Source of the DNA: Hyphomicrobiales bacterium
GTDB lineage: Bacteria; Pseudomonadota; Alphaproteobacteria; Rhizobiales; Rhizobiaceae
DNA length: 64,000 nt
Direction: 5' to 3'
Assembly (NCBI GenBank): GCA_900473795.1
Contig: UCMT01000006.1
Location: 1-64,000, forward strand
Positions 2,673 through 25,112 of this stretch are shown one piece after another; within the stretch, counting starts at the first letter, position 1; each line of letters starts with the position of its first letter. A program made the position numbers and the translations under genes. Below the pieces are notes generated by a model that saw only the letters and a list, made by a program, of their open reading frames with translations, was not told the DNA's origin and did no database searches.

Positions 2673-2680
2673 GGGGTTAG

Positions 2681-4858: not shown

Positions 4859-4868
4859 GAGAGGACAT

Positions 4869-6209
4869 ATGTCTGAGATCGCCAAGGTCCACGATATCGA
4901 ATGGTATGCTGACGTTCCCAGATCGATCTGGAAGCAGACCGCGGTCGGGTTGGTCCTTCTGGGCGTGTCATTCGGTGGTTTCGGGACCTGGGCGTCGACA
5001 GCTCCCCTTGCGGCTGCGGTCATCACGCAGGGCAGTTTCGTGGCGACTGGCCAGAACAAGATTTTGCAGCATCTGGAGGGTGGCATCATCAAGCAAATTC
5101 TCGTCAGCGAGGGGGATCAGGTGGTGGAAAATCAGCCGCTTGTGCGGCTCGACGAGACGGCGGCGCTGGCAAAAAAACGGGAGCTGTTTCTACGCCGTAT
5201 AAGACTGGACGTCACAGCGGCGCGTCTGACGGCGCAATTCGAGCGCGCCGAAATTCTCGATATATCGAGCTTGCTGAAGGAACACCGCGGCGATCATGAT
5301 GTCTGGTCGATCCTCGTCAGCCAGCAACTCAATTTCAAGGCACAGCAAATTAAGCTTTCCGGCGAACTCTCCCTGCTTGAGCAAAATATCAAGGCCCTGC
5401 AGTTTCGGGAGGTAGGGTATACACGGCAGCGTGATGCGACCGTCCGGCAGCTCGAACTGCTCAAGGATGAGCATCAAAGTAAGAAGGCTCTGCTGGCCAA
5501 GGGACTCGTCCGTGCGAATGAGGTGAAATCCATACAGCGGGCGATTGCCGAGGCTGAAGGTCAGATCGGGCGGCTCGAGGCGGAGATAGCGGAAACCCAG
5601 GCACAATCGGTGAAAGGGCAACAAGAGGTCCTTCGGGCGGAAGGGATTTATCGCGAGGAAGCTCTCGAACGCCTGCAAACGATACAAAGTGAACGCGATG
5701 CGGTTCGCGAGCAATTGCGCGAAGCTGAAAATGTCCTCCAGCGCGCGACGATCAATGCGCCCGTCTCAGGCACTGTTGTCCGCAGCCATTACCATACGAC
5801 CGGTGGCGTCATCGAAACCGGTAAGGCCATTCTCGAAATACTTCCTGCCGGTGTGCCACTGATCATTGAAGCGCAGATATCACGTAACGACATTGACAGC
5901 GTGAAGCTCGGACAGAGTGCCACCATACGGCTGGTCGCACTCAACCAGCGAACAACACCGGTCCTTCGAGGGACCGTATTCTACATTTCGGCGGACGCCG
6001 TGCAAAACAGCAAGACAGGCTTGGCGGAGCATGACGTCTATCTCGCTCGCATCAATATTTCGTCAGAAGAAATCGCGAGGGTCCATGGGTTTGCGCCAAC
6101 GCCCGGCATGCCCGTCGAGGTCATGATTCAGACTGCGGAACGAACGTTCTTCAGTTACCTTGCAAAACCAATCACAGACAGTATGTCCCGGGCCTTCTCC
6201 GAGCAGTGA
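4869..6209 (+). CDS. HlyD-family membrane fusion protein of type I secretion system
   Basis: A 446-residue periplasmic adaptor that links the ABC exporter to an outer-membrane channel. It has a short cytoplasmic N-terminus, one membrane helix at about residues 21-43, a half-lipoyl motif (ITQGSFVATGQNK, LEGGIIKQILVSEGD), a long coiled coil at about 100-290, then the second half-lipoyl (ATINAPVSGTVVRSH) and a beta-barrel C-terminal part (GMPVEVMIQTAERTF). This order matches PrtE/HlyD. The start ATG 4869 has AGGAGAGG just upstream. It is in an operon with the ABC gene (10-base gap). The stop TGA overlaps a downstream ATG (TGATG), see the small frame at 6209. Confidence 0.92.
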   Translation: MSEIAKVHDIEWYADVPRSIWKQTAVGLVLLGVSFGGFGTWASTAPLAAAVITQGSFVATGQNKILQHLEGGIIKQILVSEGDQVVENQPLVRLDETAALAKKRELFLRRIRLDVTAARLTAQFERAEILDISSLLKEHRGDHDVWSILVSQQLNFKAQQIKLSGELSLLEQNIKALQFREVGYTRQRDATVRQLELLKDEHQSKKALLAKGLVRANEVKSIQRAIAEAEGQIGRLEAEIAETQAQSVKGQQEVLRAEGIYREEALERLQTIQSERDAVREQLREAENVLQRATINAPVSGTVVRSHYHTTGGVIETGKAILEILPAGVPLIIEAQISRNDIDSVKLGQSATIRLVALNQRTTPVLRGTVFYISADAVQNSKTGLAEHDVYLARINISSEEIARVHGFAPTPGMPVEVMIQTAERTFFSYLAKPITDSMSRAFSEQ

Positions 6210-6412
6210 TGTCTCTGGATGCGCTCAACGGCAGCGGCAAAACCGAGGCCGCCGACAGCACATATCCATCCCCGAGGATCTTTCCCACCAGCCTCGGCTC
6301 CGGTCGTGTTGCCGAGGGCGTTGAAGCGCTTCTGGCGACGCCCAGCTTCTTGCCTGCAGCGGATGATCTCTTCAGCTCTCGTCAAATCAGAGGGCTACAG
6401 ATCAGGCGCTGA
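6209..6412 (+). CDS. Possible small protein translationally coupled to the fusion protein gene
   Basis: A 67-residue frame whose ATG overlaps the stop of the HlyD-like gene in a TGATG arrangement, a typical coupling geometry. Codon use is not odd for this replicon, and it fills the gap up to the convergent kinase gene, overlapping its 3' end by 11 bases. No motif, membrane segment or known family is recognised and the sequence is Ser/Ala/Gly-rich. It may be real or just the 3' untranslated region of the operon; conservation in relatives would decide. Confidence 0.3.
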   Translation: MSLDALNGSGKTEAADSTYPSPRIFPTSLGSGRVAEGVEALLATPSFLPAADDLFSSRQIRGLQIRR

Positions 6413-9400
6413 CATAATTGCGTCCATCGCGTAGCAGAGAGCGTAAATGTTCGAGATCCTTGCGCAGGGCGTGGGCAAGGTTGTTCAATTCGTCGTCGCC
6501 TGCTGCACCTTTTTTCATGACGTGCGCCAGTACGAATTCACCGGAGCGGATTACGTCGCGCCAGCGCGGATTGAGCGGCAGCGTCTCGATGAGCAGATAT
6601 TTGTCGAGCGTCCTGGCCTGAAGGGAAGAGCGGTCGAAGCTCACGCGCCAGATACCGCTACGCTCGGCGAATTCAATCTTGCCTTTGCCTGTCGCACATT
6701 TCCAGAGCTCCAGGCTGTGCTGCATAATATCGACGACAATGGATCGGTAAGCGCTTTGGTTTTCCTGTGCTGCTGGCGGTTCGACGAAGAGCGAGTCCGT
6801 GCTCTCCTGTTCGGGGGCGGTAAGAGCGAGGCTGGCGCCCACGCTGTCGATCGCGCCGAGCACATGGCGGACCATCCGCCGGCTCAGACCGGGATCGCTG
6901 CGGGCAGACGGCTGTATGACCAGCGCGAGGCCGCCGCCGTTTCCGCTGTCGAGTTCGAATGCGTTCAGAGTGGACGTATGGTCCCCGAAGCGGACGTCCC
7001 CAAGAAAGAATTCGCCGTCCTGCTTGACCGCCTGGTTCACGCGTGTGGCCAGCTCGCCGCCGGTCAGGGCTGACAGCAGCGTTTCCCCGGCAATGGCAGG
7101 CGTGCCAAACATTCCCAGAGCGGTCTGGTTTGCATACGCTATCCGGCCCTGGCGGTCGGTACAGAGGATTGCGACCTCGAATATGTCGAGAAGCCGCGCC
7201 ATTCGTTTCTGCGACAGCCGAAGCGCTTCCTCGATCTGCACACGCCGGTCGATCTCCGCTTTCAGCGACGTATTTTCGCGTATCTGGCTGCGGGCACGCG
7301 CCGCCTCGAGCAATGTCGCCACCCGGGCGAGGAGCTCCTCCTTGACGAAAGGTTTGACGACGTAATCGTTCGCGCCGTGCTCGAAACCCGCGATCACGTC
7401 GCGTGTCCGGCTGCGGGCGGTCACCATGATGATGGGTATGTCGAGCAGGTCGTGGCGCTCCCGTATGGCTTTGGCGACCTCCAACCCGCTCATGCCGGGC
7501 ATCATCACGTCCAGTACGACAAGATCGGGTTTCAAACGCTCGATGCAGGCCAGCGCGTCAACGCCGTTCTCTGCCGCTCTAACCGCATAACCTACCGGCT
7601 GCAGAACATTGCGTAGAACCTGGATGTTGATCGGCTCGTCGTCGACCACCAGGATGAGCGGCATGCCTGGATCGGCCGGCGCGTCGGCGGTTATCTGGCT
7701 GCGAGCGATCATGTCCACGGTCTCGTGGAGGCGCTTCTGATCGAGTTCTTCGCCGAAATAGTCGACATAGGACGGCTCGACGGTTGCGGCGGGCAGGACG
7801 AGCGTAAAGCGTGAACCTTCGCCAAGCACCGAATGTGCCGTCAGCTTTCCGTTGAGAAAGGTTGCGAGCTGGCGAGCTATCGTTAGTCCAAGACCCGTGC
7901 CAGACGCCCCCCGCGTCCCATCCCCGACGCCTGCCTGCTCCAGCGGTTGGAAAATCCGTTCCAGGTTGTCGTTGGCGATGCCAACGCCGGTGTCTTCCAC
8001 GCTGATGGCGATGTCCTTTCTTTCCGGTGCGGCAATCAAGCGGATGGTGCTCTGGCCCGCATATTTGATGGCGTTTCCTAAGAGATTGTAGAGAATCTGC
8101 TCTAAACGTACCGGGTCCGCCATCACGAAGGGGATGTCCTCGGGGATGTCGACCTCCAAGGCCACCGGTTCTCCTCGCAGCAGCGGTTCGCACATTTTCA
8201 GAACGTTACTGACGCTGGTGGCGATATGCACCGGGTGGATGTCGAGCCGCATGCGGCCCTGACGGATGCGGTAGAGGTCGAGAAGGTCGTCCACCAGCCG
8301 TGAGAGCCGCCGGGCGCTAAAGCTGATGAGCTGGAGCTGGTTGCGCTGCGTCGCGGTCAATTCGCCGGCAACACCTGCCGCCAGCGTTTCCGAAATGCCG
8401 ATGATGCCGTTGAGCGGCGTGCGCAACTCATGGGAAGTGTTGGCGACGAAGGCGTCTTTCATCCGATCTGCTTCCTCGAGCGCCTTGTTCTTCTCCTCGA
8501 TCAGGCCGACATGCTTTTCCAGCTCGGCATTCTTCTGGTTGATGAGGTTGAGTTGTTCACTGACGGCATCGCGCATGCGTGTGAAACTGGCCGTCAGCCG
8601 GCCGAGCTCGGACGGGTTCTTGATCTCCGGCATGGCGTGATCCAGATCGCCGTCGGCAATGGCGCCAGCCGCATCGGTCAGGCGCTGTACGGGCCGGGTC
8701 ATCGTGCCGGAGAGGTAGAAGACCAAGCCCGCCAGCACCGGGAGCAGGACAAGGGCAAGCGCGATCACGATCTGCCGGAGTGAATTGCTGTTGGCGAAGG
8801 CCACGGATTCCGACACTTCGGCAACCAGGCTCCAAGCGACGGCACCGAAATGCACTTGGGTGCTTGCCGCGAGCGCGGGTACACCGCCCAGCCCATCCTC
8901 AACTAGCGCCGCACTCGAAGGCGCACCGTCAAAGTCGGTCGCGACGGGATCGCTTTGCGTGCCCGCCTTTCGACCTTCCGGTGCTGAGATGTAGCGACCG
9001 TCGGAATTAAGGAGATAAAGGCTGCCAGCCGCGCCTTGCTGTGATTGAACGATCCGGTTCAGTCCTTTGGTTCCCATCCGGAATATGACCATGCCGCGCA
9101 CCTTGTTATAGAATGCGACGCGCACGGCGAGGTAGGCGGCAAACTTGCCGGTTACCGGATCGGTGGTGAAATCGCCCACCAAGATGGTCTGGCTCTTCGG
9201 CGCTTCGGCCATGGCTCGGGAAAGGCGGGAGAGCGGTGTGGTGGTGACCAGCGCCTTCAGATCAGTCCCGAGATAGCGATCCTTCTCGACCGAGTATACC
9301 ACGCGCTGATCGGGGGTGATGAGATAGAGGTTCTCGAACTCGGACGTGGTGACGAAGCTTACGAAATCATCGTGGAACTGCTGGTGCGCATTGGCATATT

Positions 9401-9809
9401 CGAGTGCGGAGCGAAGCATCGCGTCATTGTCCTTCGGCAACAGGGCCTCTCCGCCGCCGTCGCGATCGATCCCGAACATCTGGTGCAGAATGGCGGTCGC
9501 CCGCTCCGGAGAAGGATCGATTTGCCGAAATGCATAGGCAAAGCCATAGAAGTCGCCGATCGAATAGCGCACGGCATTCGACTGGCTGAGGCTTTCGGCC
9601 TGCCGCGTGGCAAAGGTCAGATACTGTTCGATTTCACTGCGCTTGGCGTCCCGAACGAAACCGAGTTTGGCGAAGGTTTCCGCCGTGACGCTGCGGTTGA
9701 GAATATAGAAGAAGGCGGAAGCGGTGGCCAAAAGCGGCAGCAGGCTGATCGCCAGAAGAATGAGCAGAAGGCGGCCCCGGAATCCGGACGGCGACAGCGC
9801 TCTCAGCAT
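6402..9809 (-). CDS. Hybrid sensor histidine kinase with Cache-type sensor, HAMP, kinase, receiver and PAS-like region
   Basis: About 1135 residues. Order: membrane helix (about 10-32), a periplasmic region of about 290 residues resembling a double Cache sensor, second helix (VIALALVLLPVLAGLVFYL), HAMP, coiled coil, HisKA with phospho-acceptor His460 in [10 protein letters not shown], HATPase (N, G1 DTGVGIAND, G2 GTGLGL), and a receiver with Asp767 in VVLDVMMPG and Lys in VVKPF. A PAS-like segment (LLDIFEVAILCTDRQGR) and about 190 further residues with no family I can name follow. Start is uncertain: 9809 has GGGAAT about 9 bases upstream; 9860 is an alternative 17 residues longer. The frame stays open far upstream (to 11378), but that part is antisense to the binding-protein gene. 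The gene is divergent from the peptide transporter operon; whether it controls it is unknown. Confidence 0.88.
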   Translation of the reverse strand: MLRALSPSGFRGRLLLILLAISLLPLLATASAFFYILNRSVTAETFAKLGFVRDAKRSEIEQYLTFATRQAESLSQSNAVRYSIGDFYGFAYAFRQIDPSPERATAILHQMFGIDRDGGGEALLPKDNDAMLRSALEYANAHQQFHDDFVSFVTTSEFENLYLITPDQRVVYSVEKDRYLGTDLKALVTTTPLSRLSRAMAEAPKSQTILVGDFTTDPVTGKFAAYLAVRVAFYNKVRGMVIFRMGTKGLNRIVQSQQGAAGSLYLLNSDGRYISAPEGRKAGTQSDPVATDFDGAPSSAALVEDGLGGVPALAASTQVHFGAVAWSLVAEVSESVAFANSNSLRQIVIALALVLLPVLAGLVFYLSGTMTRPVQRLTDAAGAIADGDLDHAMPEIKNPSELGRLTASFTRMRDAVSEQLNLINQKNAELEKHVGLIEEKNKALEEADRMKDAFVANTSHELRTPLNGIIGISETLAAGVAGELTATQRNQLQLISFSARRLSRLVDDLLDLYRIRQGRMRLDIHPVHIATSVSNVLKMCEPLLRGEPVALEVDIPEDIPFVMADPVRLEQILYNLLGNAIKYAGQSTIRLIAAPERKDIAISVEDTGVGIANDNLERIFQPLEQAGVGDGTRGASGTGLGLTIARQLATFLNGKLTAHSVLGEGSRFTLVLPAATVEPSYVDYFGEELDQKRLHETVDMIARSQITADAPADPGMPLILVVDDEPINIQVLRNVLQPVGYAVRAAENGVDALACIERLKPDLVVLDVMMPGMSGLEVAKAIRERHDLLDIPIIMVTARSRTRDVIAGFEHGANDYVVKPFVKEELLARVATLLEAARARSQIRENTSLKAEIDRRVQIEEALRLSQKRMARLLDIFEVAILCTDRQGRIAYANQTALGMFGTPAIAGETLLSALTGGELATRVNQAVKQDGEFFLGDVRFGDHTSTLNAFELDSGNGGGLALVIQPSARSDPGLSRRMVRHVLGAIDSVGASLALTAPEQESTDSLFVEPPAAQENQSAYRSIVVDIMQHSLELWKCATGKGKIEFAERSGIWRVSFDRSSLQARTLDKYLLIETLPLNPRWRDVIRSGEFVLAHVMKKGAAGDDELNNLAHALRKDLEHLRSLLRDGRNYVSA

Positions 9810-10058
9810 CGGCAATATTCCCGCAGCGTGTCTGGCATACACTCTCCCGCTTTTCCGCATGGCGGACAATCCCGGGCAATCTATACAATTGCGGAAAAAG
9901 AGGGATCGGTTTTTTCGATATGACCGTAATTTCCGGTTTTGACGATTTTGCCGCAACTCTTGCCGGAATTGCCGGGTGACTTTGCCGTGGGCGCTGCGCT
10001 GATATGCCCTCGCCAACCGGCCGGGCAGAGACCCGCGCCTTGAAAATGGGGAACGGAA

Positions 10059-11714
10059 ATGAACATCAAGACTGTTTTGAAGGCCGTGCTCGTTGCCAGT
10101 GTCATGGCCCCGGTGTCTGCACGTGCGGAAGTGATACTGACCGCATTGCCGGACGAATCGACGGCATGGGTGGAGAATTACAATCCTTTCAATACCACGA
10201 CCCGAGTGCCGTCGGTCGAAGATTTCATGTACGAGCCGCTGGTGATTTTCAACGCACTCAAGGATGGCGAACCGAACTATCGGCTGGCGGAATCCTTTTC
10301 CTATTCGGATGATCTGAAGAGCGTCACCTTCAAGCTCAGGGATGTGAAATGGTCGGACGGCAAACCCTTCACGGCGAAGGACGTGGTCTTCACCTTCAAT
10401 TTGATCAAGGAACACAAGGCCCTTGACCTGCAGGCGATCTGGGACCAGATCGACGGTATCGAGGCGCCTGACGATCGTACGGTGAAGATCAATTACAAAA
10501 GCCCGAACAGCGGCCTGATCTTCAAAATCGTGCAGATCTACATCGTACCGGAACATGTCTGGGCGTCGGTCAAGGATCCCGTCTCGTTCACCAATCCCAA
10601 GCCGGTGGGGAGCGGTCCACTCACAGAAATCCGTCGCTTCACGCCGCAGGAATATGTGCAGTGCCGCAATCCCAACTATTGGGACAATGCCACGCTGAAG
10701 ATCGATTGCATGCGCTTCCCGCAGGTCGCCGGCAATGATCAGACGATTGCGCTCGCCGCCAAGGGCGAACTCGACTGGTTCGGTTCTTTCCTTCCCGACA
10801 TCGAGAAGACCTATGTCGGCACCGACCCAAAAAACCATGGCTACTGGTTTCCGGCCGGTTCCATGGTCACCTTTACAATGAACTTCGAGACAACGAACGC
10901 CGGCAATCACGAGGCTTTCAACAACCTCGCATTCCGTCGCGCCTTCTCGATGGCGATGGATCGGCAGGGAATGGTCGATATTGCCGGCTATGGCTACCCC
11001 ACGCTCAACGAATATCCTTCCGGTCTCGGTCGCGCCTTCCATTCCTGGAACAATCCGAAAGTTGACGAGAAATACGGCTCCTTCTCGAAATACAATATCG
11101 AGGGCGCCAGGGCCGAACTCGCCAAGGCGGGCTTCAAGGATACAGATGGCGACGGCTTCGTGGAAAACCCCGACGGCAGCAAGATCAGCTTCGACATCAT
11201 CGTGCCGAATGGCTGGACCGATTGGGTGAACACTTGCCAACTGGCGATCGAGGGACTGACCGAGGCCGGCATTCAGGCAAAGCTTGCGACGCCGGATGTT
11301 CCCGGCTGGACCGATGCGCTGATAACCGGAAAATATGATGTGGCGATCAACTCGTTCCGCACCGGCGTCACCCCGCATTTCATGTATGACGAGGCGCTCA
11401 ACTCACGCAACAAGGGTAAAACGCGCTTTGCATCAGCCCACTACAGCAATCCCGAGCTCGATGCCCTGCTGAACTCGTTCTACACCACCAATGATCACGG
11501 CAAGCAGATCGAGATCATGAACAAGATCCAGGACGTCATCGGCGCGAACATGCCCTTCGTGGCGGTGTTCAACAATCCACTCTGGTACGAATACAACACC
11601 AAGCGCTTTACCGGCTGGTTCAACGCAGACAATCCGGTGGCCCGTCCCGTCGTCTATGGCGGTGTGCCGGAACGGCTCCTGCATCTTCTGGCCCTGCGAC
11701 CGGTCGCCCAGTAA
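10059..11714 (+). CDS. ABC transporter substrate-binding protein, dipeptide/oligopeptide type (SBP family 5)
   Basis: A 551-residue periplasmic binding protein. Residues 1-24 form a signal peptide ending in VSARA. The family-5 signature is present: YEPLVIF, YRLAESFSYSDDLKSVTFKL, and DVKWSDGKPFTAKDVVFTF. Start ATG 10059 has GGGGAACGG upstream. It is the first gene of a complete importer (binding protein, two permeases, two ATPases) running to 15507. Family 5 proteins bind peptides, nickel complexes, opines or oligosaccharides, so the ligand cannot be given from sequence alone. A stable hairpin follows before the permease gene and may raise expression of this gene relative to the rest. Confidence 0.92.
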   Translation: MNIKTVLKAVLVASVMAPVSARAEVILTALPDESTAWVENYNPFNTTTRVPSVEDFMYEPLVIFNALKDGEPNYRLAESFSYSDDLKSVTFKLRDVKWSDGKPFTAKDVVFTFNLIKEHKALDLQAIWDQIDGIEAPDDRTVKINYKSPNSGLIFKIVQIYIVPEHVWASVKDPVSFTNPKPVGSGPLTEIRRFTPQEYVQCRNPNYWDNATLKIDCMRFPQVAGNDQTIALAAKGELDWFGSFLPDIEKTYVGTDPKNHGYWFPAGSMVTFTMNFETTNAGNHEAFNNLAFRRAFSMAMDRQGMVDIAGYGYPTLNEYPSGLGRAFHSWNNPKVDEKYGSFSKYNIEGARAELAKAGFKDTDGDGFVENPDGSKISFDIIVPNGWTDWVNTCQLAIEGLTEAGIQAKLATPDVPGWTDALITGKYDVAINSFRTGVTPHFMYDEALNSRNKGKTRFASAHYSNPELDALLNSFYTTNDHGKQIEIMNKIQDVIGANMPFVAVFNNPLWYEYNTKRFTGWFNADNPVARPVVYGGVPERLLHLLALRPVAQ

Positions 11715-15970: not shown

Positions 15971-16402
15971 ACTCGCCGATGTTGCGTCTATCCTGACCGC
16001 CGAAGGCTGATTGCATCTTGCAGGCTCGGTCACTGAGCGGCGAGGGTTGCAGCAACACAGGGGAGACCACTGGCTCTCGCTACCTCTGTCGAGGCAAGAT
16101 GCTCCGCGTTCATTTAAAGTGTCTGCCGGTGTCTGCCAGAAGCGAGAGCCTGCCATTCCGCGCCGAAGGAATGAGCAGCCCGGAGAGGGCGCCGTTTACC
16201 TGCTTGTGGTTAGCCGCTTCGTGCTTGCAAAAGCGACCGGCTTTGCTCTGGTTCCATTTTGTGAGAATAGTTCGTAAAATGGATACGGTCGTGCTTTTTC
16301 GTACGACTTGATGTTCACCGAAAAGTTGCGTCTTAATGAAACTCAAACCAGTCTTCGCGTAAGATCGGTTTTCCAAGTCTGTGAGAAGGCCCACGTAGCG
16401 TG
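15971..16402. other. Gene-free stretch upstream of diguanylate cyclase gene
   Basis: There is no convincing coding frame here. The right half becomes AT-richer (about 16250-16340), as expected for the promoter region of the downstream gene, but I cannot name a clear -35/-10 pair. Confidence 0.5.
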
Positions 16403-18301
16403 ATGAATGGCATATGGGAGCAGTTTGCTGGCAACCTTGCCTTTGTCAGCTTGGCCATTTCGATTTGGGCTCATCTCTCGATCTGGTTTCAACGTCAAAT
16501 TGTCGGATATGAAAAAATCATGTTCGGCACCATGGCCGGCGGTGCGTCCATCGGCTCGATGTTGCTTGCCGTTCAATTCAGTCCTGGCGTTTATGTGGAC
16601 CTCCGCTTTGCGCCGCTTGCCCTTTCGGGCATGTTTGGCGGGCCGATTGCGGCAGTCGTGGCCGCCTTGCTTACAGTTGCTTTTCGCATTTGGATCGGCG
16701 GGACTGGAATGACCGATGGCGTGCTGGTGACCATTGCCGTCACTGGCATGGGGCTTGTAGCGAACCTCTTGATCAGAAAGAAAGCTCCGGTCTTCTCGCA
16801 CCTTGTTCTACTCGCGGCTGCGATCGGATGTCTGCTTATTGCGTCAATGGGATTGCTGCCTGCTCTGTCGAAGGTCCAGGCGCTGAATGCAGTCGGTCTA
16901 CCTATGACGGCGATGAACTGTGCAGCGACCATCGTAGGCGGCCTTATCATATTGAAAACGCAGCGTCTCGAGCTCGAGCGCAGAATATTGGAGACTGCAT
17001 TTTCGCAATCGCCCGACTATCTCTACGTGAAGGATCGGGACAGCCGGTTCATCACCGTCAACGAAAATATGATCCGCCTCTATCGTTTCGAAACCACGAC
17101 AGAGATGTTGGGCCTGTCGGATTTCAATCTCTTGCCGCGACCGCTCGCTGAGGAATTGTATCACCGCGAGCAGGAAGTCATGCGCACGGGCATACCCCTT
17201 ATCGACTGCGCCGAGTATATCGAGGGTAGAGATCTGCTCGCCTCCAAGGTTCCTCTGAGGGACCGGGATGGGCGCGTGATCGGTCTGGCCGGCGTAACGC
17301 GGGATATCACCGAACGCACAGCCCTTGAACGGGAATTGCGGCAAAGCAAGAACCTGCTATCCCACGCGATGGCGGGAATGCCAGACGGTTTTGCGATGTT
17401 TGACAGCGAGGGCATTCTCCTCTTTTGCAACGAACAATACCGAGACGCGTTTCCGTTGTCCGCAGATGCTCGGGTGGTTGGTGCGCACATCAGCGACATT
17501 TTACGCCGTGTGGCCGAAACCCGTGAGCGGCTGGATATCTCCTACGATTCGACGGAAGACTGGATCAAGGCGGCCAGTGCCACCTTGCATGAGAACAAGA
17601 ACGAAGAGATTCAACTTCAGACCGGCGACTGGCGCAGCATCAAGACGCGACGGGCGGCAGACGGGACCGCGATGGTTGTCGTTTCGGACATCACGACGAT
17701 GAAGCAGGCCGAAATCGCCTTGAGGCTGTCTGCCGAGCAGATGAAAAACCTCGCGGAAACCGACGGATTGACGGGGATCGTCAACCGCCGGGCCTTTGAC
17801 GACGCGTTTGTGCGGGAGGCGGCGCGAAGTGCAAGGAACAAGACACCACTGAGCCTGTTGATGATCGATATCGATCGTTTCAAGGCGTTTAATGACACCT
17901 ACGGCCATCCCGCCGGAGACCAATGCCTGCGCCTGGTCAGCGAATGCCTGCTTCGATCCGTGAAGCGGCCCGCGGATATCGTCGCGCGATATGGTGGCGA
18001 GGAGTTTGTCGTTCTGCTTCCCGAAACAGAAGAGAATGGAGCGGTTATCGTTGCAGAAGGCTTCGCAAGCCACTTGAGGGCGGAAAATATCGTCCATTCC
18101 CAGAGTGAATTCGGCAGGGTGACTGCGAGTATCGGTATCTCGTCCGCAACAGGGGGCATTCTGCGCGCGGAGCCAAATCGCCTTCTGTCGATGGCGGACG
18201 CCGCGCTCTACGACGCCAAGGCGCAAGGTCGCAACCGCATTCTCACTCGCTCCCCTGCCGCCGGTTTAAACGTGGTCAGGGACGCTGCTGGCGCTACTTG
18301 A
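16403..18301 (+). CDS. Membrane diguanylate cyclase with 5TMR-LYT sensor, PAS domains and GGDEF
   Basis: About 632 residues. The N-terminal 190 residues are five or six helices resembling the 5TMR-LYT sensor of LytS-type proteins (AGGASIGSMLLAVQFSPG, VDLRFAPLALSGMFGGP). A first PAS (TAFSQSPDYLYVKDRD), a second PAS (HAMAGMPDGFAMFDSEG) and a GGDEF domain follow. The active-site motif is GGEEF (531-535), with an RxxD inhibitory site (RPAD) five residues before it, so it should make c-di-GMP under product feedback. The start may be GTG 16400 or ATG 16403; the ribosome site is weak. It stands alone between two unrelated operons. Cellulose synthase in the same window is a plausible c-di-GMP target (inference). 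Confidence 0.9.
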   Translation: MNGIWEQFAGNLAFVSLAISIWAHLSIWFQRQIVGYEKIMFGTMAGGASIGSMLLAVQFSPGVYVDLRFAPLALSGMFGGPIAAVVAALLTVAFRIWIGGTGMTDGVLVTIAVTGMGLVANLLIRKKAPVFSHLVLLAAAIGCLLIASMGLLPALSKVQALNAVGLPMTAMNCAATIVGGLIILKTQRLELERRILETAFSQSPDYLYVKDRDSRFITVNENMIRLYRFETTTEMLGLSDFNLLPRPLAEELYHREQEVMRTGIPLIDCAEYIEGRDLLASKVPLRDRDGRVIGLAGVTRDITERTALERELRQSKNLLSHAMAGMPDGFAMFDSEGILLFCNEQYRDAFPLSADARVVGAHISDILRRVAETRERLDISYDSTEDWIKAASATLHENKNEEIQLQTGDWRSIKTRRAADGTAMVVVSDITTMKQAEIALRLSAEQMKNLAETDGLTGIVNRRAFDDAFVREAARSARNKTPLSLLMIDIDRFKAFNDTYGHPAGDQCLRLVSECLLRSVKRPADIVARYGGEEFVVLLPETEENGAVIVAEGFASHLRAENIVHSQSEFGRVTASIGISSATGGILRAEPNRLLSMADAALYDAKAQGRNRILTRSPAAGLNVVRDAAGAT

Positions 18302-18581
18302 CAACTGGTCGACGCTGCCTGGATTCCACACAAGCTGGCTGCGTTCTGTAAAGCGGCTGGAGCTGTCGTCACTTGTTGCCCGCGAGCTGCCAGTTGCAGG
18401 AGAGGCGGGCGCTTAAGCGAACAGCCCTCGTTGCGCCTTCGACGCCAAGAACCGTATCACTCCTCAGTGCTGCATGGTATGGTCTCAGAGTTGGCGATGA
18501 TCGCAGCCGAAACTGCAAGTCGCTGACTGCGAGACCCGCTCCGTTGGCTAAATTGCGGGATCGACGCGGAAGGTTTCTTCC

Positions 18582-19679
18582 ATGCACCGCATCGTTCTCT
18601 TTGTCATTGTCGGCCTTGCTGCTGTGGTCAGTTGCTCCGCGCATGCCGACGTGTTGATCGGGGTTTCGGCCGCGATGACAGGACGGCTGGCGTGGATTGG
18701 TGAGCAGGGGCAGCGTGGAGCGGAGATGGCGGTTGCCGATCTCAATAGGGCGGGCGGCGTTCTCGGCCAGCAGGTGCGGCTCATTGCGGTCGACGACTTC
18801 TGTGATCCCGAGCAAGCGGTGGTCGCCGCCGAAAAGCTCGTGGCTGACGGTGCCGTGTTCGTCGTCGGACATTACTGTTCTGGAGCCTCGATTCCAGCTT
18901 CGAAAGTGTACGAGGCCGCAGGAGTTCTGCAGATTTCGCCAGGGTCGACCAATCCGCTGTTGACCGAGCAGGGTCGCGACAACGTCTTCCGCGTCATTGG
19001 TCGCGACGATGCGCAGGGTGTTGTGGCCGGCAGCTACCTGGCCGATCATTGGGGGAACAAGAAGATTGCGATCCTTCACGACGGCACCACCTATGGCAGG
19101 GGACTTGCCGAGGAGACCAGAAAGCAGTTGAACAAGCGGGGTGTGACCGAAGCGATCTACCGGGCATACACGCCTGCAAGGAATGACTATTCGGCTGAAA
19201 TCACCGCGCTGAAAGCTGCCAATGTCGCCGTGGCATATGTGGGCGGCTATCATGCCGAGGTAGCGCTCATGGTTCGCGGTGCACGTGATCGCGGTGATCC
19301 AATACAGTTCATCTCGGGCGATGCCCTCGCGACCGAGGAATTTGCCCTGATCGCCGGCCCCGCCGCTGAGGGAACCCTGTTCACGTTTTCAGCAGATCCC
19401 CGACGAAATCCCCAGGCCGCTCCGGTGGTGGAGCGGTTTCGGGCGGACAACTTTGAACCCGCAGGCTATACGCTGTTGAGCTACGGCGCCGTTCAAGCTT
19501 GGGCGCAGGCGGTCAAGGAAGCCGGTTCGCAGGATCTGCGCGACGTGATTACGTCCTTGCGCACCCATCAATTCGATACGGTGCTCGGTCGCATCGCCTT
19601 TGATTACAAGGGCGACCTCACGGTCCAGAGCTGGGTATGGTATGTCTGGAAGGATGGCGAATACGTGCCATTGAAATAA
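18582..19679 (+). CDS. Periplasmic binding protein of branched-chain amino acid type, orphan, likely sensor partner
   Basis: A 365-residue Peripla_BP_6-type protein (ADVLIGVSAAMTGRLAWIGE, GQRGAEMAVADLNRAGG). Residues 1-22 form a signal peptide; cleavage after AHA is likely, but VVSC could act as a weak lipobox. No permease or ATPase genes are near. It is followed by a histidine kinase, a receiver and an adenylate cyclase, so I infer that it presents a ligand to the kinase rather than to a transporter. Ligands of this family include amino acids, urea and amides; the ligand here is unknown. Confidence 0.88.
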   Translation: MHRIVLFVIVGLAAVVSCSAHADVLIGVSAAMTGRLAWIGEQGQRGAEMAVADLNRAGGVLGQQVRLIAVDDFCDPEQAVVAAEKLVADGAVFVVGHYCSGASIPASKVYEAAGVLQISPGSTNPLLTEQGRDNVFRVIGRDDAQGVVAGSYLADHWGNKKIAILHDGTTYGRGLAEETRKQLNKRGVTEAIYRAYTPARNDYSAEITALKAANVAVAYVGGYHAEVALMVRGARDRGDPIQFISGDALATEEFALIAGPAAEGTLFTFSADPRRNPQAAPVVERFRADNFEPAGYTLLSYGAVQAWAQAVKEAGSQDLRDVITSLRTHQFDTVLGRIAFDYKGDLTVQSWVWYVWKDGEYVPLK

Positions 19680-19766
19680 CACAACGCTGATCACTGCGGA
19701 TCGTGTTCGAGAAAAAAGCTGTGCGCGCCATGTTGACCACATCGGCCGGATCGATTGGTCGCCGCG

Positions 19767-22700
19767 ATGTTTGAACGTCTCGGCATACGCGGCCGCTTGC
19801 TCTTCGCTTTTTTTGGGATCAGCACTTTCGCGGTGCTCGCGACCGCAGCGGCCGTGTATGCCTTCCTCCAGGTGGGTGCGGTCGTCGAGCGGATCACGGA
19901 TCGCCGGGTCCCATCCGCGCTCGGATCGCTCGAAGTCTCCCGCCAAGCTGAGCGGGTCGCCGCCACTGCGCCGGCTGTCCTTGCTACCACCAGCACGGTT
20001 CAGCACAAGGACGTCTCGGCTGCGATCGGAGCGGAGATGGCGCGCCTCGAAGATTTGCTCGCCGCGCTCAAGGGCACCGCGGTAAACGCGGCGGCCGTAG
20101 CTGAAATCGAAACCGCGGTGATCGGTCTGCGGCGCAATCTCAAAGCTCTCGACGACCTTGTCGCCGCTCGCCTCACCGTGGTCACACGCAAGGAGGACCT
20201 GCTGCGCCGTTTGTCGGCGACGACCACCGCAAGCGAGCGTCTCGTGGCTCCCGGCATTCTGGTGATGAATGCCAAGGTTCCACAGTGGCGCGCCACCGTT
20301 GCAGATGCCGCCGCGCCACCCGATGCGCGTGCTGCGGCGACAACAGATCTTGCGCTTGCAATCTCTTCCTACATCCCACAACAGAAGGCGCAAAGGGAGA
20401 TCTCGGCGATCAATGAAGCGTTGCTCAAGGCGGCGGTGGCGCCGACGACCGGCGATCTGGCGCTGATGTCCTTTGCGTTGCGCCGCTCGGTTGCGTCCCT
20501 TGCTGCGACGACACCCGAGATCGATGAGAAGCTGCGAATGCGGTTCCGCCAGCGCATTGACGAGTTCGAGGGACTGATCGACGGTGCAAAGGGCATCCTG
20601 AAGGCGCGCGAAGAAGAGCTCGCAGTGCTCGCGAAGGGCGGGAAGCTCCTGTTGGAGAATGACCAGCTGTCGCGCAAGTTAACCGGTGCCGCGAACCGTC
20701 TTGTCGGTGCGGCCAACCGCGACATCGCCGAGGCTGGCCGCGAAGCTGCAACCGTCCAGCGCATTGGCACCGGCGTTGTCCTTGGTTCGGCCGTCCTGAG
20801 CCTTCTCAGCTCGGTTCTGATTGTTTGGCTCTATGTGGACCGTAGTCTTCTCGCCCGGTTGGCGGGGCTGAGCCAGAGCATGCTTGCCATCGCCGGCGGC
20901 AACCTTCGGGCACCACTGCCTCCAACGGGCCGCGACGAGATCGGTCGCATGGCCAAAGCGCTGCAACTGTTCCGTGACACCGCGGTCGAGATCGAGGAAA
21001 AGAACCTGCGCGAGGTTGCCGAAGCGCGCCAGCGGCTCGTCGATGCAATCGAAAGCATCTCCGAAGGCTTCGCCCTTTACGATACAGAGGACCGTCTTGT
21101 CCTGTGCAATAGCCGTTACAGGGAAATCCTCTATCCCGGCATAGCCGATTCAGTTGTCCCGGGGGCACAATTTGAGACCATTGTCCGAAAGGCGGTGACA
21201 CAGGGCCTCGTCGAGGATGCGAAGGGCCAAGAGGAGGCGTGGCTCGCTGCGCGGCTTGAGGCACATCGCAATCCTAAGCAGACGCTGGTTCAACACCGCA
21301 GCCAGGACCGCTGGGTTCAGGTCAACGAGCGGCACATAACCGGCGGCGGCACGGTCGCGGTCTACACGGACATCAGCAAGCTTAAGCGGCACGAAACCGA
21401 GCTCGAGCTCGCGCGGGATGCGGCCATGGCGGCGACACAGGCCAAAAGCAAGTTCCTTGCCAGCATGAGCCACGAATTGCGCACCCCGCTGAACGCCATC
21501 CTGGGCATTACCGAAATGCTGCAGGAAGATGCCAACGACGCTGGCCAGGACGAGCTGATCGAACCACTTGGGCGCGTTACGCGTGCCGGGAAGCATCTGC
21601 TCAAGCTTATTAATGAGGTGCTCGATCTTGCCAAGATTGAGGCCGGCCGCCTGGAACTGCATATCGAGGCGTTCGATATCGCAGGCATGGTTCAGGATGC
21701 CGCGACAACCGTGCGGCCACTTGCCCAGAAAAACCGCAACGGGATCATTATCGAATGTCCAGAGGACATTGGCAGCATGCGCGGCGATCCGCTCCGGGTT
21801 CGTCAGATCCTCCTCAACCTATTGAGCAATGCATGCAAGTTCACGGAAAATGGACAGGTCACGATTGCGGCGGCGCGCATGAAGGTTGACGATGCCAAGG
21901 GCGTGTTGTTGACGGTTGCCGATACCGGCATCGGCATGACGCCGCAGCAGATGAAGAACTTGTTCCAGGAGTTTAGCCAGGCCGATAGTTCCACCACGCG
22001 CAAGTACGGCGGCACCGGACTAGGGCTTGCCATCAGCCAGCGCCTGTGCCGCGCAATGGGTGGTGACATCACCGTTGACAGCACTCCTGCCGTCGGCACC
22101 AGGTTTACCGTGTGGCTGCCGTCGGCGATCGAGGCGCCTCCCACGTTGGCACAGCCGCCGGTCCCTGGGATCGCCGCCGCCGAGCAGGTTCGCCTCGTCT
22201 CGAACATCGTCCTCGTCGTTGATGACGATGAGGCGGTGCGAGACCAGATGCGGCGGTTTCTGGTCCGCGAGGGCTGCGATGTGGTGACGGCCAAGGACGG
22301 TGTGGAAGCCCTTAGACTGGCGCGGCAACTGAAGCCGGCACTTATCACCCTTGATGTGATTATGCCGGGTTGCGACGGCTGGAGCGTCCTGCAGGAATTG
22401 AAGGCGGATCCTGAGCTCGCGACTATCCCCGTCGTGATGCTCACCATGGCCGACGAGAGGAACCGCGGTTACGCGCTCGGGGCCGCCGATTACATGGTTA
22501 AGCCGATCGAGCGCGATGCGCTGCGCAAACTCATTGCGAAATTCTGGTCCGGAGTGCCTGGCTCAGCGCCGCGGGTTCTGATCGTCGAGGATGATGGGGA
22601 CACGCGTCAGCAATGGCGCCGCATATTACGCACAGAGGGTTGCGACGTGGACGAGGCGGAGAATGGCCGGTTCGCGCTGGAACGTGTCATCCGTGAGCGT

Positions 22701-22979
22701 CCGGACCTCATCATTCTGGACCTCATCATGCCGGAAATGGACGGCTTCGAGTTTCTTGTCGAACTGCGCAAGCGGCCTGCCTTCAAGGCGGTGCCGGTCG
22801 TGGTCGTGACAGCCGCGACCCTCAGCGAGGAGGACCACGAGCGCCTCAGCGGTGGCGTCGAGCGTGTGCTCGCCAAAGCTGCCTTCAGCCGCGACGAACT
22901 TCTTGAGGAGTTGCGCAAGACGGTTGCACTGTACAGCCTTAAACGGAACTCGCCTGACAAGGATCACCCGCATGGTTAG
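19767..22979 (+). CDS. Hybrid histidine kinase with PAS and two receiver domains
   Basis: About 1070 residues counted from ATG 19767 (a TTG at 19755 is an alternative). Order: first membrane helix at about 12-34, a long alpha-helical periplasmic region to about residue 335, second helix ([20 protein letters not shown]), HAMP, PAS ([19 protein letters not shown]), HisKA with His569 in SHELRTPLN, HATPase ([19 protein letters not shown]), receiver 1 with Asp863 ([13 protein letters not shown] lysine), and receiver 2 with Asp985 ([12 protein letters not shown]; lysine in VLAKAA, the following proline missing). It lies 87 bases after the binding-protein gene and overlaps the next receiver gene by 8 bases. 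Output is probably phosphate flow to the next two receivers. Confidence 0.92.
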
Positions 22980-23349
22980 CATCCTTTATGTCGAAGACAA
23001 TGAGGACAACATCTATATGCTGTCCACGCGGCTAAGGCGCAAAGGTTACGAGGTCATCGTCGCCACCGATGGGGAGCAAGGTGTGGCGCGTGCGCGATCG
23101 GATGCACCGTCGCTTATCCTGATGGACTTGAGCCTTCCCGTCATTGACGGATGGGAGGCCACCAGGCGTCTGAAGGCCCTGGCTGTGACGCGCGACATCC
23201 CCGTGATCGCTCTCTCCTCACACGCGATGCCTGGCGACCGCGAAACAGCACTGGCAGCGGGCTGCGATGACTTCGATACCAAACCCGTCGAGTTCGCGCG
23301 CTTGCTTGCAAAGATCAAGGCTCTGCTTCCAAGGGGGACGATATCATGA
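22972..23349 (+). CDS. Single-domain response regulator, DivK/CheY-like
   Basis: A 125-residue receiver without an output domain. Acid pocket EDN, phospho-acceptor Asp52 in LILMDLSLP, Ser in ALSSHA and Lys in TKPVEF are all present. ATG 22972 overlaps the kinase stop, and the gene overlaps the cyclase gene by 4 bases (ATGA), so the three are translated as a unit. Likely a phosphate shuttle or sink between the hybrid kinase and the cyclase. Confidence 0.92.
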
Positions 23350-24407
23350 GCGAGATTGGGCCTGCTCTGCTTGTCGTCGACGATAACGAGGACAATCGCT
23401 TCACGCTGACGGAGCGGCTGAAACGAGAAGGCTACGCAAACGTGGCATGCGCCAGCAATGGTCGAGAGGCGCTCGAACTGCTGGCGACAAGGCCATTCGA
23501 CCTCGTGCTGCTCGACATAACGATGCCGGAAATGGACGGCTACCAAGTGCTCCAGGAGGTCAAGGCCGACACGACCCTGCGCAATATTCCGATTGTCATG
23601 ATATCGGCGGTCGACGAAATCGAAAGTGTGGCGCGCTGCATCGGCCTTGGTGCAGAGGACTATCTGGCCAAGCCCTTCAACGCGGTTCTTTTGCGCGCGC
23701 GCGTGGCCGCCTGCCTGGAAAAGAAGAAACTGCGCGACCAAGAGGCGGTTTATACGCAGCAGATCGAAAACGAAAAGCGCCGAGCAGACGAGCTCCTGTA
23801 CGCCATGCTGCCTCCCGGGGCTGTGCGCGAGCTCAAAGCGACCAATGCCGTGCGCCCCCGTCGCTACGACGAAGTCGCGGTGCTCTTTTGCGATATCGTT
23901 GGCTTTACGGCCTATTGCGACGAGAACCCGCCGGAGAAAGTGGTGGAGCATCTCCAGGAGCTGAACGGGGAATATGAACGAATCGTCCGTCAGCACGAGA
24001 TGGAGAAGATCAAAACGATCGGCGACGCTTTCATGGCGACGGCCGGCCTGTTCAATCGCGTGCCAGATCCGGTTTTTGCCAGTTTGCAATGCGGGCTGGA
24101 GATGGTGACGGCATCACGCCGCATCGAACCGCATTGGGAGGTGCGAGTCGGCGTCCAGTTCGGGCCAGTCGTGGCGGGGATCATCGGACACCGACAATAC
24201 CTCTTTGACCTGTGGGGCGACACCGTGAATATGGCGTCCCGGATCGCAGCTCATGCCAACCCCGGGACTGTGGCGACCAGTGGGGCCACTTGGCATCGCA
24301 TTCGCGATCGGGGCCGCGGGCACTCCCTGGGCTTCGTGGACATCAAAGGCAAGGGCCGGATCGAACTGATCGAATGCCAGGGACTGAAGGAGGAGGGGTC
24401 GTGCTAG
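23346..24407 (+). CDS. Receiver-class III adenylate cyclase
   Basis: A 353-residue cytoplasmic protein. Residues 1-130 form a receiver (Asp57 in LVLLDITMPEMDG, Lys in LAKPF), followed by a coiled-coil linker (about 130-160) and a class III cyclase domain. Metal-binding Asp183 (FCDIVGFT) and Asp227 (IGDAF) are present. The base-specificity pair is Lys223 (KIKTIGD) and Asp in FDLWGDTVN, which is the adenylate rather than guanylate pattern. The TVNMASR transition-state residues Asn and Arg are intact. So cAMP production controlled by phosphorylation is predicted. It is last in the overlapping kinase-receiver-cyclase unit. Confidence 0.93.
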   Translation: MSEIGPALLVVDDNEDNRFTLTERLKREGYANVACASNGREALELLATRPFDLVLLDITMPEMDGYQVLQEVKADTTLRNIPIVMISAVDEIESVARCIGLGAEDYLAKPFNAVLLRARVAACLEKKKLRDQEAVYTQQIENEKRRADELLYAMLPPGAVRELKATNAVRPRRYDEVAVLFCDIVGFTAYCDENPPEKVVEHLQELNGEYERIVRQHEMEKIKTIGDAFMATAGLFNRVPDPVFASLQCGLEMVTASRRIEPHWEVRVGVQFGPVVAGIIGHRQYLFDLWGDTVNMASRIAAHANPGTVATSGATWHRIRDRGRGHSLGFVDIKGKGRIELIECQGLKEEGSC

Positions 24408-24719
24408 ACCGTTTTGTTTTCCGTCGTGGATCAGTGGGCAGGACATCGTAGCCGGGGTTCGACAACGTACGGGAACTTCCTGGCGGATGCCGAGTAAAGG
24501 GAGCTGGTGGCATATAGAAGGTGCGGCCATCCTTCTTGGCCTCAGTTGTCAACCGCGCCCTTCAGCGCGGATGTGCGCGGCGTGGTTGAGACGCTCTTGG
24601 AGGAACGCGCATTTTTCCTGACAATGGGTTGGAACAATCCATTTCGTTGCGCGTTAGGCGTCCGGTCGATTTCTGTCGACATCAAACACCGTGATTTCCA
24701 ACGATGCGAGGATGCACAG
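24408..24719. other. Gene-free stretch after the cyclase gene
   Basis: No supported coding frame, repeat or clear terminator was seen. A frame reaches upstream from the next gene but without coding signals, and a good ribosome site sits only at 24706-24712. Confidence 0.45.
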
Positions 24720-25112
24720 ATGAACAACCGGTTCCCACAACTCCATGAAGGACACGCGCCGATCACGCTACACCAGCTGTTCCGCGATGCCCTGGAAGCC
24801 TATGACGACTGGGTCGATGGCGGAGATACTCCGACGGTATACCATCAAGGAATGCCAGTTGCGATCGAAGTCGTCTTCGATCACATGCGCGATTGCACGG
24901 ACATTCTGCCGAACAATATGGTCAGTGCCATTACCGAGCGCCTGACAAAGCCCTGGAGCAGCGACAGCCCCCTTGATGAGATGACCTTTTCTACTGCGGC
25001 ACGCATTATGTGCGTGCTTGTTCGCAAGCGGGAATTGCGGCGCACCGGCAGCGATATTGATGCCTTTGTCCGGCGATTCGAAAAGCTTCGCTCCGACCAC
25101 GTCGACCCTTGA
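24720..25112 (+). CDS. Conserved-looking hypothetical protein
   Basis: A 130-residue soluble acidic protein beginning MNNRFPQLHEGHAPITLHQL. GCGAGGA lies 7 bases before ATG 24720, which decides this start over the longer upstream frame. Predicted mostly alpha-helical; no motif recognised. It ends with a charged helix (RRFEKLRSDHVDP). It is 312 bases after the cyclase gene on the same strand, so co-transcription is uncertain. Confidence 0.65.
   Translation: MNNRFPQLHEGHAPITLHQLFRDALEAYDDWVDGGDTPTVYHQGMPVAIEVVFDHMRDCTDILPNNMVSAITERLTKPWSSDSPLDEMTFSTAARIMCVLVRKRELRRTGSDIDAFVRRFEKLRSDHVDP

Follow-up and report, generated by a model that had tools for sequence, protein, structure and literature searches.

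A Rhizobiaceae gene cassette predicted to link a LivK-type binding protein to a cyclase through a chimeric histidine kinase

The hybrid sensor kinase TorS works with the binding protein TorT, carries an Hpt domain at its end, and has a DNA-binding response regulator as its output. Here we describe a four-gene cassette of a Hyphomicrobiales bacterium (Rhizobiaceae; assembly GCA_900473795.1) in the first 64,000 nucleotides of contig UCMT01000006.1 (the window), in which four intact plus-strand frames in a row code for a solute-binding protein (SBP), a hybrid histidine kinase, a lone receiver, and a receiver fused to a class III cyclase. It resembles TorT-TorS in having a TorS-family sensor, a HAMP domain, a hybrid kinase, and an adjoining SBP gene, but the SBP is of the LivK type, the kinase lacks an Hpt domain and has a PAS domain and two receivers, and the output is a receiver-cyclase plus a lone receiver, with no DNA-binding regulator. 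Among the class III cyclases of rhizobia, CyaD1, CyaD2, and CyaK of Sinorhizobium meliloti also answer to an external signal, but these use a CHASE2 sensor (PMC13001267, PMC4222275); no Pfam match to CHASE2 was found in the window proteins or in four receptor cyclases scanned.

S. meliloti codes for 26 class III cyclases, the function of which is described as overall unknown (PMC4222275). The available portion of a 2022 survey of SBP-activated receptors covers chemoreceptors, sensor kinases, cyclic di-GMP (c-di-GMP) enzymes, and Ser/Thr kinases, and adenylate cyclases are absent from it (PMC9602780). No paper on a binding-protein-driven adenylate cyclase was recognized by title or abstract start in a search that most of the subscription literature lay outside, and none was found in the literature searched on an SBP with a TorS-type receptor cyclase in the Rhizobiaceae. 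We consider it probable that the four genes form one signaling unit, running from the SBP through the TorS-type kinase to the receiver-cyclase and cyclic AMP (cAMP).

Layout and conservation of the cassette

An earlier, sequence-only reading of this DNA described four contiguous genes with the last three overlapping by 4 to 8 bases, a Peripla_BP_6 protein without transporter genes, four receivers for one kinase, all with the acceptor Asp, and a cyclase with adenylate-type residues, and all of these points hold (Table 1). The overlaps are 8 bases between kinase and lone receiver (22972-22979) and 4 bases between lone receiver and cyclase gene (23346-23349), with an SBP-kinase gap of 87 bases. 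Kinase residues, including Asp863 and Asp985, are numbered from the ATG at 19767; the frame could also start at a TTG (19755), but relatives start at the same residues as the ATG form. The phospho-acceptor His569 sits within the motif SHELRTPLN. The neighbors of the SBP gene code for a GGDEF protein and the kinase, and a Pfam scan of neighboring open reading frames (ORFs) revealed no evident branched-chain permease or ATPase gene directly beside it. The Guanylate_cyc domain (143.2 bits; cut-off, 21.9) has the specificity pair Lys223 and Asp288 (the Asp of FDLWG), together with Asp183/Asp227 and Asn295/Arg299 in the residue alignment, to which we assign presumed roles in specificity, metal binding, and transition-state stabilization, respectively. 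The label of DivK-like given to the lone receiver proved loose; it is a receiver, but PleD receivers outscore DivK (96 versus 79 bits). The cassette genes are under selection, since the ratio of nonsynonymous to synonymous substitutions (dN/dS) is 0.08 to 0.15 across 16 gene pairs. There are 28 Pfam matches to class III cyclases in this genome.

The SBP-kinase-receiver-receiver/cyclase order, which we refer to as the relay form, occurs in eight loci: the window, Rhizobium sullae (L084), R. mongolense (L100), and the Rhizobiaceae genomes G455, G528, G542, G553, and G558 (L and G numbers are our labels for loci and genomes). Neighborhood comparison thus bears out the proposed conservation of the order, with the cassette shared as a block. 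Among DNA matches of >150 bases to window positions 8001 to 36000, those of L084, L100, L067, L068, and L197 start at 18536-18566, end at 24385-24391, and occur nowhere else, and the block therefore travels as a unit between unlike neighborhoods; G542 (L196) also has flanks in common with the window. The relay form is rare. Within the genus, 5 of 26 genomes have a kinase match at E <= 1e-150; within the family, 8 of 297 have a cyclase match at E <= 1e-80, and three of these (the window, G455, and G528) have orthologues at 83 to 100%. In a collection of 72,556 plasmid records, three contain 80% or more of the cassette, each of them a megaplasmid of Rhizobium or Pararhizobium, and a fourth matches over 49 bases only.

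Table 1. Features of the cassette, in window coordinates
Feature	Position	Strand	Evidence
SBP, LivK/Atu2422 type, 365 aa	18582-19679	+	Peripla_BP_6, 176 bits (cut-off 31.7); nearest solved relative 3ip5
Hybrid histidine kinase, chimera, 1070 aa	19767-22979	+	Pfam HAMP, PAS_7, HisKA, HATPase_c, two Response_reg; identity profile
Kinase input: membrane helices, TorS-type periplasmic sensor, HAMP	19767-20980	+	TorS_sensor_domain, HAMP, profile match to 3o1h
PAS_7 domain, its end the chimera joint	21048-21395	+	Pfam; end of DNA similarity to receptor-cyclase loci
HisKA + HATPase_c; phospho-acceptor His569 at 21471-21473	21441-22124	+	Pfam, motif
Kinase receiver 1, Asp863	22209-22535	+	Pfam, motif
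Kinase receiver 2, Asp985 (limits approximate)	22569-22931	+	Two Response_reg stretches, motif
Lone receiver, Asp52	22972-23349	+	Response_reg; PleD and DivK relatives
Receiver (Asp57) + class III cyclase, Lys223/Asp288	23346-24407	+	Response_reg, Guanylate_cyc; residue alignment
Whole cassette, DNA common to relatives with unlike flanks	18536-24391	+	DNA matches to L084, L100, L067, L068, L197

Just upstream of the cassette (16400-18301) is a gene for a protein with five transmembrane segments, PAS, and GGDEF, probably a diguanylate cyclase, which has a counterpart in L196 and lies outside the block shared with the other relatives. An ORF downstream of the cyclase gene (24507-25112) has no Pfam match and is also outside the common block. 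In L196 (10060-11644; window 18372-18375), ∼1.6 kb with a 449-aa ORF separates the GGDEF and SBP genes and looks like an inserted element absent from the window. L198 (G558; 3848-9674) is rearranged: pieces equal to window 19785-20463 are inverted and lie in two places, and a 23170-23627 piece precedes the kinase remainder, such that a portion of the cyclase receiver now forms the start of the kinase frame. This is either an assembly error or a real inversion.

Receptor cyclases and the joint in the kinase

A search of 394 family genomes with the input half of the kinase (sensor, HAMP, and PAS) at E <= 1e-40 gave matches in 19, with 11 at E <= 5.2e-125. Three of these 11 (the window, G528, and G455) have the relay form, and eight (G564, G445, G382, G492, G437, G229, G311, and G607) have what we call the receptor-cyclase form, in which the same sensor-HAMP-PAS is fused to a class III cyclase (Pfam domains were scanned in three of the eight). 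Seven of the receptor cyclases are single proteins of 819 to 860 aa; that of G607 has its sensor divided between two frames. An SBP gene lies directly upstream in all eight loci, its product 63 to 77% identical to the window SBP; all eight were found via the sensor, and G229 also via the SBP search. Across both output designs, the SBP adjoins this sensor in 16 of 16 loci.

The receptor-form cyclase domain is only 23 to 27% identical to that of the window and has Thr in place of Asp in the specificity pair, and so it is of another class III subclass, rather than the same domain moved. Compared with three receptor cyclases, the window kinase has 42 to 90% identity per 40-residue block up to residue 520-560 and at most 35% thereafter, whereas against the relay kinases of L085 and L086 identity is 57 to 60% in block 520-560 and 75 to 77% in the next. 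DNA similarity to the receptor-cyclase loci stops at 21387-21394. From this switch in the identity profile and the end of DNA similarity, the kinase is a chimera with its joint near residue 540, having a receptor-cyclase front and a phosphorelay back. A single input that reaches a cyclase through two dissimilar wirings is good evidence for a cyclic-nucleotide output, the best to be had short of an assay, and lends credibility to the predicted link.

The phosphorelay back also occurs with other inputs. Kinase, receiver, and receiver-cyclase genes are in the same order in L085 (Rhodospirillaceae), L086 (Sneathiella), L070, L071, and L075 to L078, and, with an insert, in L226, making nine further kinds of neighborhood. 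The gene preceding the kinase in the first eight codes for a Tll0287-like protein in five (L085, L086, and L076 to L078) and a Peripla_BP_5/6 protein in L075; the preceding ORF of L071 has no Pfam match, and L070 was outside that scan. The cores behind Tll0287-like proteins have the same three genes in the same order as the window, with cyclases 65% and 60% identical and lone receivers 77% and 70% identical in L085 and L086, respectively, but a Tll0287-like protein takes the place of the SBP and the front half of the kinase has no match to that of the window. Because the relay core is found behind other inputs, the input half and relay half are both modules.

Five of the other eight of the 19 genomes were examined (all except G267, G326, and G407): G331, G366, and G644 have an SBP (26 to 30% identical) and a sensor-cyclase fusion, and G336 and G313 have hybrid kinases. 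The G229 receptor cyclase has matches at E <= 1e-150 in 56 of the 72,556 plasmid records (by first word 52 Sinorhizobium, 2 Rhizobium, 1 Ensifer, and 1 Pararhizobium). In 53 of these the match extends over 80% or more of the protein, and the remaining three are probably relay forms; the SBP as query gives the same count and breakdown. Adjacency of the two genes was checked in the plasmid records examined in detail and can be seen for a few listed in both searches. On pSymA of S. meliloti M162 and ml28, the annotation names the two products a branched-chain SBP and a cyclase-domain protein, and the pair lies beside nitrate ABC transporter genes. The pSymA of S. meliloti 1021, a model strain in which single genes are readily deleted, carries the pair at about 306.3 to 309.8 kb of NC_003037.1, with an SBP ∼73% and sensor/PAS ∼72%/68% identical to those of the window. 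The pSymA system thus has the same SBP and sensor/PAS as the window but fuses its own cyclase, of another subclass, straight to the sensor, without kinase or receivers.

Two tandem SBP genes precede one receptor cyclase in L190 (G311; 7901-10213) and L221 (G657; 2061-4102), which suggests more than one ligand per receptor. Among receiver-cyclases, those of L226, L091, and L088 are longer and have, ahead of the receiver, a HisKA-like match but no ATPase domain, and similar proteins in L071, L075, L076, and L078 seem by eye to be without a phospho-acceptor His. In a Myxococcales metagenome-assembled genome (MAG; L090, 3090-5751) a heme-NO-binding-receiver fusion lies upstream of a receiver-cyclase with a short HisKA-like ORF between, and in a SAR86 MAG (L087, 8735-11047) a receiver-EAL protein directly precedes a receiver-cyclase; these are possible nitric oxide-to-cAMP and c-di-GMP/cAMP units, respectively.

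Binding protein and sensor

The nearest solved relative of the window SBP is 3ip5, which we take to be Atu2422. Atu2422, which serves the Bra transporter, binds gamma-aminobutyrate (GABA) and handles proline, alanine, and valine as well (PMC5924552). The window SBP scores 328.5 bits against NCBIfam PRK15404, below the cut-off of 477. In a tree of 48 SBPs, the 17 that are sensor-linked form one clade (100/100, branch 0.74) apart from the 31 others, and the window SBP does not group with a distant transporter operon, an outcome that the sequence-only reading had named as speaking against its proposal. In 15 of 30 loci of the other SBPs, an ORF of one ABC-ATPase-like cluster is within the 1.5-kb flank, a call that rests on a Walker motif rather than a family scan. 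At 27 alignment columns, 16 or more of the 17 sensor-linked SBPs share a fixed residue and the others differ, as would be expected if the docking partner had changed. At positions that we presume to be the ligand contacts of LivK and Atu2422, the sensor-linked SBPs keep Ser100 (17 of 17), Thr123 (16), Tyr171 (16), Tyr223 (17), Asp247 (16), and Tyr296 (13), and the LivK/Atu2422-type pocket looks to be kept. The ligand is likely an amino acid, with a GABA- or proline-like compound the leading guess; the broader class proposed earlier, an extracellular amine or amino acid, is plausible only.

A profile built from 18 sensors finds the TorS sensor structure 3o1h, as well as 3o1i and 3o1j, with an E value of 5.3e-10 over positions 53 to 320. 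The window sensor alone matches TorS_sensor_domain at 29.2 bits (cut-off, 27), as do 16 of 18 family members at the cut-off, and within the whole kinase the score is 26.3 bits, just below it. The periplasmic part of the kinase, with its sensor domain at about residues 35 to 335, thus belongs to the TorS sensor family. A single-sequence search of the PDB with the sensor gave six weak matches, the best with an E value of 0.0027 in the HAMP region, and TorS was not among them. Class-wide, the sensor has matches at E <= 1e-12 in 37 of 289 genomes, counting that of the window. The 20 stretches examined include three fused cyclases (L221 to L223), eight with histidine-kinase matches (L220, L224, L225, L226, L230, L233, L234, and L235), five chemoreceptors by Pfam (L227, L228, L229, L236, and L237), and four untyped (L231, L232, L238, and L239). 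A binding-protein gene of some family is nearby in seven of the 20 (L221, L222, L225, L234, and L237 by BLAST; L226, DctP, and L223, NMT1, by Pfam).

It is conceivable, although unlikely, that the SBP serves a branched-chain-type transporter encoded elsewhere, as Atu2422 does Bra in Agrobacterium, with the kinase sensing something else and the adjacency being historical. The closest solved relative is a transport protein (PMC5924552), and adjoining SBP and kinase genes can be unlinked (PMC11113362). However, the constant pairing of SBP and sensor through two output designs and differing DNA flanks, the separate SBP clade with its 27 columns, and the TorS family of the sensor all argue for a working SBP-kinase pair.

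Predicted mechanism, alternatives, and significance

In the signaling unit that we favor, a LivK/Atu2422-type SBP, apparently freed from its transporter, would bind a small molecule and the loaded SBP would dock onto the kinase at its helical, TorS-type sensor. A conformational change would then carry the signal from HAMP through PAS to the kinase core, and the kinase would phosphorylate receivers including that of the cyclase, thereby setting cAMP synthesis, with the lone receiver and the two kinase receivers perhaps competing for phosphate or storing it. Gene order, conservation, families, residues, and the joint are read directly from the DNA; from these we infer the SBP-sensor contact, ligand, phosphotransfer, cAMP product, sign of regulation, and direction of change. 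The earlier proposal of a ligand-to-cyclic-nucleotide relay is strengthened as regards the SBP-kinase pairing, because the order is conserved, the SBP clade is separate, the sensor is TorS-like, and in relatives this sensor is part of a cyclase fusion protein; its cyclic-nucleotide output likewise gains, and its multistep relay within the locus is unsupported.

Several observations weigh against this account. No Hpt domain is among the Pfam matches of the kinase or the rest of the locus, and a multistep relay via an Hpt there was dropped; as the whole genome has only two Hpt matches, we prefer direct transfer from His569 to several receivers, which is simpler than a four-step relay. Neighboring SBP and kinase genes are not always linked in function, as described for AgtS and AruS (PMC11113362). 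In L220 (2021-3673) and L233 (7582-8922), a receiver-SpoIIE protein replaces the receiver-cyclase after a hybrid kinase of the same sensor family, and the cyclase is therefore not the fixed or sole output partner of such kinases. Damage or rearrangement affects L067, L197, and L198, three of the eight relay loci, with the kinase frame split in L197 and the cyclase frame of L067 opening only at codon 25 of that of the window, with one in-frame stop reported. An AlphaFold2 model of the sensor from three sequences (window, L084, and L100) is poor (predicted local distance difference test score of 50; predicted template modeling score of 0.33), and Foldseek gave no PDB match to it at E <= 0.001. 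Binding, phosphotransfer, and cyclase activity are all predicted from sequence. As to the direction of change, relay rows nest within receptor-cyclase rows in the SBP tree as well as in the sensor tree rooted by an outgroup, but the two trees disagree on the sister, and in approximately unbiased (AU) tests a single clade of all receptor-type SBPs stays allowed (p-AU 0.131).

The same tests reject holding L069, L188, and L189 together (p 0.029). The rooted sensor tree, which omits L191, L197, and L198 as broken or rearranged, has an outgroup that falls apart into more than one group, and long branches meet in this tree; in the unrooted tree of all 16 rows, the two forms are on opposite sides of one branch. 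Most likely, an SBP-coupled receptor cyclase would have lost its fused catalytic domain and a phosphorelay output, again ending in a cyclase, would have taken its place; that the receptor cyclase came first is likely, not shown.

Two further alternatives concern the output. The SBP-kinase pair could be real and act chiefly via the lone receiver or other partners, with another kinase driving the cyclase. Four receivers for one kinase allow several routes, the locus has no Hpt match in Pfam, and related kinases have other outputs, but the kinase-receiver-receiver/cyclase order is kept in L085, L086, L070, L071, L075 to L078, and (with insert) L226, and the sister systems that share this input are cyclases, such that we regard this as improbable. 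That the unit is real but its cyclase yields cGMP or is inactive seems very improbable: the product is predicted from residues only and S. meliloti Clr responds to cAMP and cGMP alike (PMC10127613), but the adenylate-type metal, Lys/Asp, and transition-state residues are identical in all eight relay loci and the dN/dS of the cyclase gene alone is 0.08 to 0.13 in four pairs.

The sequence-only reading also raised symbiosis, an angle that does not carry over to this strain: NodC is below the cut-off (best, 55.7 versus 550 bits) in a genome rated 100% complete, and a tie to nodulation is therefore not supported here. For the family as a whole, returning to the SBP-driven signaling unit, we think it reasonably probable that the Rhizobiaceae have a receptor class in which a transporter-derived SBP controls an adenylate cyclase, either directly (S. 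meliloti pSymA) or via a swapped-in phosphorelay (the window). The kinase is also a clear natural case of a sensor that has switched, in one direction or the other, between a one-protein receptor enzyme and a phosphorelay, with the kind of output kept. If the proposed receptor class is real, the list of SBP-driven receptors would extend to adenylate cyclases and cAMP, probably with an amino acid as the signal. Of the numerous rhizobial cyclases without an assigned function, some would gain a defined input, one that is also present in the model symbiont S. meliloti.

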